Shown here piece by piece: positions 29,450 through 59,294 of a DNA stretch of 64,000 nucleotides (position 1 is its first letter; each line of letters begins with the position of its first letter). The notes under the pieces are model-generated. The model was not told the origin of the DNA and ran no database searches. It saw only the letters and a program-made list of their open reading frames with translations. The translations under genes were made by a program, and so were the position numbers. This stretch comes from Acidocella sp. (GTDB taxonomy: Bacteria > Pseudomonadota > Alphaproteobacteria > Acetobacterales > Acetobacteraceae): NCBI GenBank assembly GCA_031291755.1, contig JARLIK010000002.1, forward strand, positions 1-64,000, written 5' to 3'.

Positions 29450-30322
29450 TTAAGGAGCTGTCCCCAGTAATGCCGACAGCGACAACCCGGGTTTCTTGAG
29501 ATTGCTTGCGACAGAGTCGGTCTCGGTTCTGACGCTGGCATTGTAATCATCAGGCGGCATGCCGGCGGGAAGATGCTGGGTGAGTACAAAATCCGGGCGG
29601 GGTTGCGTGTCGATATACAAGGCCACGTCAAAAGCGTCCTTGTCGCTTAGGTGGGCATTGCCCAGCGGCATGTTGCCTTTCACCCATTCCGCGAGCTTGG
29701 GCACATTGGCCAGACCCGCGCCGGCATTATAGCTGTTCGGGCCCCACACCGGCGGGAAGGTGCCTGGTATGCCCGCCCCTTGTGCGCCATGGCAGGCGGC
29801 GCAATCGGTTTTGTAAACCGCGGTGCCGGCTACAACATCAGCGTGGGTGGCAGCCTTGAGCATTGCGGGGAAAGGGCTTGGCTCAGCGGCAGACGCTGGG
29901 GCTAATATCGCCTTGCCCTGGTCGAGCCAACTGATATAGGCGGTCATGTCGACAACCAGCTTGCTATCGGTGCTCGGGCGCATGCCGTTCATGCTGCGCA
30001 TGAAGCAGTTGGCAATCCGGTCCTCAAGGGTGATCACAGCGCCCTCGCGCGGGGAGAAGGAGGGGAATTTGGTGGCGGTTTTAAGCAAATTGCCTGGATG
30101 ATCGTTGTTGCCGCCGTCAGTGTGGCAACTGTTGCACGTCAACCCATTGCCAACATTACCTTTGGACTCAGGGTCGGTAGTGGTGTTCATGATGGTGTCG
30201 TAGCCGCGTTGAACCGACTGTCCAAACGGCCCCGGCGGTAAATTTTGTAGCGGCGTGGCGCTGGCATGCGCCGAACCCGCAACAACAGTTAGTGCGATTA
30301 CTGTAACTATAAAATTTTTCAT
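29450..30322 (-). CDS. Diheme cytochrome c, TsdA (thiosulfate dehydrogenase)-like
   Basis: Signal peptide; CNSCH and CAACH heme motifs; LEDRIANCFMRSMNGMRPSTDSKLVVDMTAYISWL. Confidence 0.83.
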   Translation of the reverse strand: MKNFIVTVIALTVVAGSAHASATPLQNLPPGPFGQSVQRGYDTIMNTTTDPESKGNVGNGLTCNSCHTDGGNNDHPGNLLKTATKFPSFSPREGAVITLEDRIANCFMRSMNGMRPSTDSKLVVDMTAYISWLDQGKAILAPASAAEPSPFPAMLKAATHADVVAGTAVYKTDCAACHGAQGAGIPGTFPPVWGPNSYNAGAGLANVPKLAEWVKGNMPLGNAHLSDKDAFDVALYIDTQPRPDFVLTQHLPAGMPPDDYNASVRTETDSVASNLKKPGLSLSALLGTAP

Positions 30323-56874: not shown

Positions 56875-57597
56875 TTAAGCCACGTCTCGCCAGATTTTGC
56901 GTTTGGTAGCAATCGCCAGCAAGGTGAGGAAAATCAGGAAGATCACCGCCCGCAGGCCAATTTGCTTGCGCGCATCGAGATTGGGGTCAGAGGCCCAGGT
57001 GAGGAAGGCCGCAACGTCGGAAGCTTCCTGGGCGGTGGTCGCCTTGGTGCCGTCGGCATAGGTGACAGCATTATCCGTCAACGGTGCCGGCATCGCGATC
57101 TGGTTACCGGGGTAGGCGGCATTATAATAATGCTTCGCCATCAGGGTCACATCGGCCGGAGGGGCCTGATAGCCGGTAAGCAGATTATAGATATATTCGG
57201 TGCCCTTCGGCCGGGCGGCAACAATGTTCGAGAGATCGGGCGGAACAGCCCCGCCAAACGCAGCGGCGGCCTGGGATTTTGGCAGAGCGCTGATGAGACG
57301 GTCATCTAATGTGGCTGGCCGGTTGTCCAGCTTGATGCTGGCAGTGATGTCGGCCACCTGTTCGGTGGTCAGGCCAAGGGCGGTCAGGTCACGGTAATGC
57401 AGCGCGTTGGCTGAATGGCAACTTGCGCAGGCGGTTTGATAAACCAGGAAACCGCGTTGCAGGGCAGCTTGGTCGTACGACCCAAAGGTTCCTTGTGATT
57501 GCCAATGCAGCGGGCTGAGTGTGTCCTCGGCGTAAGCAGCGGAGCCAAAGGCGAGGAAAGCCGCCAGCAGGGCGGCAGCGGAGATGCCAAGTTTCAT
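56875..57597 (-). CDS. petC: Cytochrome c1 of a bc1-type complex
   Basis: VYQTACASCHSANALHYRDLTALGL; PPDLSNI; GNQIAMPAPLTDNAVTYADGTKATTAQEASDVAAFLTWASDPNLDARKQIG; C-terminal TM anchor. Confidence 0.93.
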   Translation of the reverse strand: MKLGISAAALLAAFLAFGSAAYAEDTLSPLHWQSQGTFGSYDQAALQRGFLVYQTACASCHSANALHYRDLTALGLTTEQVADITASIKLDNRPATLDDRLISALPKSQAAAAFGGAVPPDLSNIVAARPKGTEYIYNLLTGYQAPPADVTLMAKHYYNAAYPGNQIAMPAPLTDNAVTYADGTKATTAQEASDVAAFLTWASDPNLDARKQIGLRAVIFLIFLTLLAIATKRKIWRDVA

Positions 57598-58718
57598 TAT
57601 TTTGACTCCCGCGCGGTGACGAGTGGGGTGAGCACCAGAAAATGCAGAAAATACCAGCCGATGAAAATGATCATCAGGATCGCGTTAATCGTCGAGGGAC
57701 CGGCGGCGGCGGTCATGCCGAGCGCAATCACATCGAGTCCGAGGATCACCACCAGTAGCTTGTAGAGAAAACCAGGCTCTGAACGAGGGTCTGAGCGGTC
57801 CAGCCAAGGCATCGCGAACAGTACCGCAAAGGCAGCGAAGAAGGCCACGATACCCCCTTCGGTTCCTGGCAGAGCATGTGTCACGGCGGCCGCGGGCAGA
57901 AGGTACCAGGGCGGCGTCATCACGGCGGGCACCAGCAGCGGGTTGGCGGGTGCCGCGTTCAGCGGGTTTTCACCCAGATGCGGGGCAAAGAATACCAGCA
58001 CCGCAAACAGCAGCACATAAACCGACACCGCCACGAAATGATGGCTGGTGTAGTAGGGGTGCAAGGGTACGGTCTTTTTGGCAACCGGGGCGACGGCCTG
58101 CTTGGCATAATAATGTAAAACCAGCACGCCAAGAGCTATGAATGTCAGCAGCCCATGCATCATGGCCACGTGCCCGAGCGTGCCGTGGCCAGCCGGACCG
58201 CCCAAGACCCAGTTGGAAATATTACCAGGGAAGCTGGAAAGCCCAGCACCGGCCAGTGTCACGTCATGCAGGCTCCAGTGACTGACCGCGCCATCCTGCA
58301 TCGCATAGCCAAGGTAACCGACCAGCATCATCAGCAGCAGAAATGCCAGCTTGAGCCCCCATACCAATTCGCCGGGCAGCCGGTAGGCCCCGGTGATCAG
58401 GGCGTGGAAAATCGCCAGATATACGGCGGCGAACAGCATGGTGGTGCCGGTGGCGTGGAAGGAGCGGATCAGCCAGCCGTCATTGACGTTGCGCATGATG
58501 AACTGGATGGAATTATACGCGCCGTGGTCTGACGCCACATAATAGGCCGACAGCACCGCGCCGGAGAGCATCAGAAAGATCAGCGTTCCGGTGATCAGCG
58601 TGCCAAGGGCCGACAGATAAGGCCGGTTGGCGGGCAACGGCTTGTCACACACTTGAGCGCGAAAACAGGCGGCGAGGGGAAGCCGGGAGTCCAGCCAGGA
58701 TTTGGTTTGGTCTGACAT
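57597..58718 (-). CDS. petB: Cytochrome b of a bc1-type complex, divergent at key motifs
   Basis: FIMRNVNDGWLIRSFHATGTTMLFAAVYLAIFHAL; MMHGLLTFIALGVLVLHYYAK; PPWYLLP at the PEWY position. Confidence 0.87.
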   Translation of the reverse strand: MSDQTKSWLDSRLPLAACFRAQVCDKPLPANRPYLSALGTLITGTLIFLMLSGAVLSAYYVASDHGAYNSIQFIMRNVNDGWLIRSFHATGTTMLFAAVYLAIFHALITGAYRLPGELVWGLKLAFLLLMMLVGYLGYAMQDGAVSHWSLHDVTLAGAGLSSFPGNISNWVLGGPAGHGTLGHVAMMHGLLTFIALGVLVLHYYAKQAVAPVAKKTVPLHPYYTSHHFVAVSVYVLLFAVLVFFAPHLGENPLNAAPANPLLVPAVMTPPWYLLPAAAVTHALPGTEGGIVAFFAAFAVLFAMPWLDRSDPRSEPGFLYKLLVVILGLDVIALGMTAAAGPSTINAILMIIFIGWYFLHFLVLTPLVTARESK

Positions 58719-58733: not shown

Positions 58734-59294
58734 TTAACCGAGCTGAATTTGCGTAGCGTTGAGGAAGGTAAAGCGTGGAATCGCGAGATTTTTCGGGGCC
58801 GGGCCGCTGCGCACGCGCCCTAGCGGGTCGTAGATGCTGCCGTCGCACGGGCAGGTCCAGCCGTCGAGCGGGCCGCGCGGATCGGTAGGGCTGTTGCCCA
58901 GAAGTTCACATGAGATACCGGTATTCAGCCCGACAACGACCACAAAACTCTCGTAGCCGGGCTTAACACGGTCGGTATAATCGGCCGGGTCGGGTAAGGA
59001 AGATGGCACAACGGCCTGATTATCGGCAATCTGCTGCGGGGTCAGCTTGCGGATATAGATTGGCTGGCCGAGCCACATGACTCGCAATCCGGTGTTAGGC
59101 GCAATGCCGCCTACCTCAATAATGGGATTCGATACTGCAAGCTCGGCAGTGGTTGGGTTCAGCGCGTCGATAAACGGCCAAGCCGTCGCTCCCAGCGCCA
59201 CGGCACCTGCCGAAACCGTCAGGATCTTCAGAAAATCGCGCTTAGCTGGGGCTTCCACCCCGTCCTCAACCGCATGTGCCGCTGCATTTGCCAT
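58734..59294 (-). CDS. petA: Rieske-type subunit of a bc1-type complex with degenerate cluster-binding motifs
   Basis: [31 protein letters not shown] (Tat/TM anchor); [13 protein letters not shown]...[29 protein letters not shown]. Confidence 0.87.

Follow-up and report, generated by a model that had tools for sequence, protein, structure and literature searches.

Genus-wide derangement of the cytochrome bc1 complex in Acidocella and its probable retention as a structural assembly

Introduction

Can a cytochrome b whose quinol oxidation (Qo) site has been rewritten still belong to a working bc1 complex, and what might keep it in the genome if it cannot? The question is raised by a locus of Acidocella sp. 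(assembly GCA_031291755.1) in the first 64,000 nucleotides of contig JARLIK010000002.1, a stretch that was analysed as a whole and is called the window here. The original prediction, made from this DNA alone, held that the cytochrome b gene has PPWY where PEWY is expected and MQDGAVSHW where LPWGQMSFW is expected, and that quinol oxidation chemistry at Qo is altered, in keeping with a Rieske partner lacking its ligands. A deranged bc1 complex has been described in Acidocella by Degli Esposti et al., 2023 (PMC10715153), and a structural role is proposed for it in the main text of that paper.

Results

The cytochrome b gene is part of petABC, a compact operon on the minus strand (Table 1), which is intact and encodes homologues of all three bc1 subunits. 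In searches of the PDB, the petA and petB products align colinearly with subunits of solved bc1 structures, and the cytochrome b matches, which go down to 9e-49, run colinearly across PPWY and MQDGAVSHW. Both motifs are present as predicted, within 57870-58320, and together with the Pfam matches they identify the window's petB as encoding a genuine cytochrome b. The searches returned a single bc1 in the window's genome, an assembly that is 83.7% complete; a second, canonical bc1 was looked for there, was not found and was rejected on these grounds.

Table 1. Positions of the petABC genes and of their cofactor and quinone-site features in the window
Feature	Position	Strand	Description	Support or state
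petA	58734..59294	-	Rieske iron-sulfur protein homologue, 186 aa	TIGR01416 2.6e-38
petB	57597..58718	-	cytochrome b, 373 aa	PF00033 9e-27, PF00032 1e-16
petC	56875..57597	-	cytochrome c1, 240 aa	PF02167 3e-72
Rieske box I	58908..58925	-	NTGISC for CTHLGC: C139N, H141G; C144 kept	PDB alignment
Rieske box II	58836..58853	-	CPCDGS for CPCHGS: H161D; C158, C160 kept	PDB alignment
ef-loop	57903..57914	-	PPWY for PEWY (Glu271 to Pro), residues 269-272	codons CCG CCC TGG TAC
cd1 region	58275..58301	-	MQDGAVSHW for LPWGQMSFW, residues 140-148	
His88	58455..58457	-	haem bL ligand (bovine His83)	kept, 35/35
His188	58155..58157	-	haem bL ligand (bovine His182)	kept, 34/35
Ala102	58413..58415	-	replaces the haem bH ligand His97	lost
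His202	58113..58115	-	haem bH ligand (bovine His196)	present in window's subclade, partner His97 absent
c1 haem site CxxCH	57415-57429	-	haem attachment	intact
c1 Met ligand	57091-57093	-	haem ligand	intact

The Rieske protein bears most directly on catalysis. Three of its four cluster ligands are lost in the window (C139N, H141G and H161D; Rieske and cytochrome b residues carry bovine numbers), so that Cys158 is the only ligand left; C144 and C160, which form the structural disulfide, are retained. We searched 60 relatives and 150 genomes of the order and found 35 Acidocella genomes, the window's included, with both cytochrome b and Rieske genes. All of them encode Asn139, Gly or Ala at 141, Cys144, Cys160 and Asp161; at position 158, 23 of them have Cys and the other 12 have Ser, and at least three ligands are missing in every one. 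The claim of a ligand-free Rieske partner thus holds for three positions and goes too far for the fourth, because Cys158 persists in the window's genome and is lost in 12 of the 35. From what is established about Rieske proteins, a [2Fe-2S] cluster cannot be built on a single remaining ligand. Mutation of a ligand histidine has been found to disrupt the whole Rieske subunit (PMC10583091). Judged by its residues, the Acidocella head would be unable to hold the cluster, and loss of the cluster ligands leaves no electron path between Qo and haem c1. The predicted head is modelled at pLDDT >90 and superimposes on the bovine Rieske fragment 1rie with a Z score of 21.4 and an rmsd of 1.1 over 127 residues. 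The strict invariance of Asn139 and Asp161 could point to a specific role rather than to passive scaffolding.

How far do the changes in cytochrome b support the loss of activity? Glu271 is replaced by Pro in 35/35 Acidocella genomes, so that PPWY and a cluster-incompetent Rieske protein occur together without exception, and the PEWY residues Trp272 and Tyr273 are kept in 100%. At cd1, P134, W135, Q137, M138 and G142 are present in 100% of canonical relatives and in 0% of Acidocella. The Asp that ends the Qo proton network described for Rhodobacter capsulatus (PMC10583091) is also replaced in Acidocella, mostly by Leu. However, non-protonable replacements of E295 in R. capsulatus retain activity, and there are species that naturally lack a protonable residue at the PEWY Glu position (PMC10583091); natural xPWY variants may exist elsewhere. 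The PEWY change alone is therefore insufficient to infer a dead Qo site, and as a sign of altered quinol oxidation the lost Glu, real as it is, is not decisive; the loss of Rieske ligands is. It is on these ligands that the case for a dead complex rests, with the losses at Qo, haem bH and the Qi site as independent support.

The cytochrome b losses are not random. Scored at 102 sites that the canonical relatives conserve, the bL side has survived (G48, G76, W77, H83, G86 and G130 in 100% of Acidocella, H182 in 97%), and the bH side (G34 in 13%, H97 in 29%, H196 in 26%) and Qi (H201, K227 and D228, each in 0%) are lost. No Acidocella keeps both bH histidines together, each having lost at least one, and different clades lack different ones: on a rapidly built LG+G4 tree, whose open forks make the counts approximate, there are at least six changes at His97 and at least four at His196, set against none at His83 and one at His182. 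The single His182 change is to Leu, in genome G019 (locus L009), where bL is possibly lost too, or where the change is possibly an error in a metagenome-assembled genome (MAG) that is 77% complete. A histidine three residues past the lost His97 in the window (YLAIFHAL) was rejected as a shifted bH ligand, because close relatives read YLAIFRAL and the residue is thus not a conserved replacement. Haem bL is probably still bound, to judge from its ligands, most simply because cytochrome b requires it for folding. The original prediction is accordingly supported in part: Qo is altered as it says, but the change amounts to removal of the whole Q cycle rather than to an altered chemistry at Qo, with the cluster, the Qo proton network, bH and Qi all gone and the bL pocket left in place. 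In cytochrome c1, residues C57, C60, H61 and M169 are invariant across the genus.

A sequencing or assembly error was rejected as the source of these substitutions, because identical changes recur in 35 genomes. A scan of named genomes with the Acidocella Rieske alignment returned 34 loci and none from an unrelated group; those named to genus are Acidocella (among them A. aquatica, A. aromatica, A. aminolytica and A. facilis), save one MAG labelled Rhodovastum, and the rest are MAGs. The remaining sampled Acetobacteraceae have canonical bc1, except an Acidiphilium-like sister genus (g51; genomes G128 and G207), in which cytochrome b is degenerate, with xPWY, bH histidine lost and bL histidine kept, and the Rieske gene is absent from the locus. 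The c1 of G207 (locus L109) keeps CxxCH and the membrane anchor and has lost the region of the axial Met ligand. Decay of bc1 is further advanced in this sister genus than in Acidocella. We infer that g51 is Acidiphilium itself, as it resembles the published Acidiphilium case of a degenerate cytochrome b without a Rieske gene.

The genes are nonetheless under constraint. No internal stops occur in petABC of Acidocella, and the gene order is conserved in relatives, in all species with complete loci. All three genes are under purifying selection, with dN/dS well below 1: estimates by YN00 between near species, for converged pairs only and with several saturated pairs left out, are 0.04-0.28 for cytochrome b, 0.07-0.15 for Rieske and 0.02-0.11 for c1, compared with 0.01-0.04, 0.04-0.08 and 0.02-0.07 from the few converged canonical pairs. 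Mean column identity across the genus is 67-68% for the Rieske protein and c1. The ratio of cytochrome b to c1 distances is 1.71 in Acidocella vs 0.51 in canonical genomes, so that the rate of cytochrome b, measured against c1, is about 3.4 times that in canonical relatives, and cytochrome b has gone from slowest to fastest subunit. This reversal implies that catalysis now constrains cytochrome b less tightly. Its model has a pLDDT of 90.5 and a Z score of 41.5 to 7rje (Candida complex III). Taken together, selection, rate reversal and predicted fold argue that constraint has moved from catalysis to fold.

The surrounding respiratory chain offers other routes for quinol. One haem-copper oxidase is present in the assembly of the window's genome, a cytochrome c oxidase (aa3) with a CuA-type subunit II, together with two bd-type quinol oxidases, which make quinol oxidation possible without bc1, and several copies of complex I. 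Three NuoH copies of two types lie on contigs C38, C29 and C18 (L154-L156), those of C29 and C18 being about 71% identical, which suggests several complex I operons. No alternative complex III was found in this genome, and its replacement of bc1 was rejected, because the sole NrfD protein sits in a molybdopterin oxidoreductase cluster. That cluster (C18, L153, 9176-16696) encodes NrfD, a ferredoxin-type subunit, the molybdopterin oxidoreductase and rhodanese-like proteins, followed by a hydrogenase small subunit, and is one of sulfur and hydrogen metabolism. A 447-aa ORF on contig C33 near 46204 (L174, 1489-3247, minus strand) has a single N-terminal CxxCH and adjoins a small class I cytochrome c gene; it matches nothing in Pfam or NCBIfam, and by inspection it would be Cyc2-like, in line with the iron route of the main text of PMC10715153. 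In the window itself, a di-haem c-type cytochrome (29450-30322, minus strand) combines a SoxA/TsdA domain (PF21342) with a cytochrome c domain and is possibly a thiosulfate dehydrogenase or tetrathionate reductase.

Discussion

Why would a genus keep a complex III that cannot run the Q cycle? We envision that petABC yields a folded, membrane-anchored assembly of Rieske protein, cytochrome b and cytochrome c1 that would no longer turn over as a quinol:cytochrome c reductase. With no [2Fe-2S] cluster in the Rieske head, as is very probable, electrons would have no way of passing from Qo to haem c1, and haem bH, Qi and the proton network of Qo would have decayed along with the cluster. Selection might then keep the assembly for a non-catalytic role, as a structural partner of complex I, of the aa3 oxidase, or of both. 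Of these steps, the absence of cluster and activity is very probable in view of the ligand losses; retention for structural reasons can be advanced with moderate confidence from the selection on all three genes; and the naming of complex I and/or aa3 as partner is tentative. As a whole, a deranged bc1 throughout the genus that lacks Q-cycle activity and is retained as a structural assembly is the reading we consider probable, and the independent description in PMC10715153 interprets the complex likewise. A literature search found no biochemistry of the Acidocella bc1 complex and turned up no paper on proteomic detection of its PetA, PetB or PetC.

Which partner might such an assembly support? 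The main text of PMC10715153 suggests that the deranged complex stabilises complex I, and complex I of Paracoccus is reportedly stabilised by supercomplex assembly, according to work cited in PMC8115037. Outside Acidocella, a strict need of alpha-type complex I for bc1 is contradicted: a cytochrome b match is absent in 16 of 150 sampled genomes, 12 of which have NuoH, and in at least three of these bc1-less genomes (G086, G069 and G088) NuoH is of the alpha type, 66-67% identical to that of the window's genome by tblastn. Complex I is thus not generally dependent on bc1 in the family, although bc1 could be needed for it in Acidocella itself. The aa3 oxidase is an equally possible partner. Genomes G069, G088 and G089 contain COX1 (cytochrome-oxidase-like) and complex I and give no cytochrome b match; they form a further group of Acetobacteraceae in which such an oxidase is present and bc1 went undetected.

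Alternatively, the bL pocket, c1 and the Rieske head with Asn139 and Asp161 may form a new bc1-derived assembly with a positive function of its own beyond that of a passive scaffold, for instance regulation of the oxidase or relay of electrons into aa3 centred on c1, which we consider rather unlikely. In a related and similarly unlikely scenario, c1 would relay electrons from periplasmic donors, for example Cyc2-type iron oxidation, to cytochrome c or aa3, with cytochrome b and the apo-Rieske protein merely holding c1 in place. The CxxCH and Met haem ligands of c1 are indeed invariant in the genus, the rate of c1 has come to lie below that of cytochrome b, the genome has a canonical aa3 oxidase with a CuA motif and no working bc1, the Cyc2-like ORF adjoins a small cytochrome c, and iron routes that reduce c-cytochromes are proposed in the main text of PMC10715153. 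Yet a membrane c-type cytochrome requires neither cytochrome b nor a Rieske protein, the Acidiphilium-like G207 has a c1 without the Met-ligand region, the Cyc2-like ORF lacks a family match, and the iron route in that same text bypasses c1.

Might petABC instead be a functionless relic, caught in decay ahead of gene loss? The ongoing, repeated and independent losses of bH ligands, the raised dN/dS of cytochrome b and the missing Rieske gene at the locus of the sister genus would fit such a course. Against it, the genes have no internal stops, every species with a complete locus shows the conserved order, dN/dS is far below 1, mean column identity is 67-68% in Rieske protein and c1 with the new residues invariant, and the operon persists in at least 35 species; we regard a relic as improbable. 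Residual linear quinol oxidation, in which haem bL or c1 would be reduced at a low rate without bH as in an antimycin-inhibited complex, is highly improbable, because general knowledge of bc1 structure provides no carrier from Qo to c1 without the Rieske cluster, the Qo proton network is lost too, and the main text of PMC10715153 excludes back-door oxidation on the grounds that Rieske loss always accompanies bH loss, even though the bL pocket and c1 are intact, the PEWY Trp and Tyr are invariant and loss of the Glu alone is tolerated in R. capsulatus (PMC10583091).

Retention as a structural assembly would leave Acidocella with a complex III whose catalytic centres are removed and which selection has nevertheless kept throughout a genus. 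Because these centres are gone, any phenotype of a petABC deletion must be non-catalytic, so that a natural system becomes available for a direct test of the long-debated structural role of complex III in respiratory supercomplexes. The series from canonical relatives through Acidocella to the Acidiphilium-like genomes also displays the dismantling of a Q-cycle enzyme: no Acidocella retains the Qo Glu or a full set of Rieske ligands, the loss of bH took several independent routes, and bL persists.

How does the complex compare with known systems? It shares with canonical Rhodobacter and Paracoccus bc1 the operon, the subunit folds, the twin-arginine-type N-terminus of the Rieske protein (PF10399) and the bL and c1 ligands; in contrast, the canonical enzymes have the Rieske ligands, the bH site, the PEWY Glu, PWGQMS at cd1 and the Qi residues. 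The g51 remnant is alike in its degenerate cytochrome b, xPWY, lost bH histidine and kept bL histidine, and differs in that the Rieske gene is missing at the locus and one c1 is without its Met-ligand region. Closest is the deranged bc1 in the main text of PMC10715153, which has in common with the window's complex the genus Acidocella, the petABC order, an intact c1, the presence of a cytochrome oxidase, the loss of three or four Rieske ligands, the kept disulfide and the loss of bH histidines, and from which it does not differ in kind; given that publication, the phenomenon was already known in kind. PEWY does not occur in the main text of PMC10715153, and some of the substitutions in cytochrome b may be shown in its supplementary figures. 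Relative to that main text, our analysis adds the genus-invariant Glu-to-Pro and Asn/Asp replacements, the lost Qi residues, the partition into a kept bL and a lost bH side, the reversal of subunit rates, a test for selection and the counter-examples on complex I.
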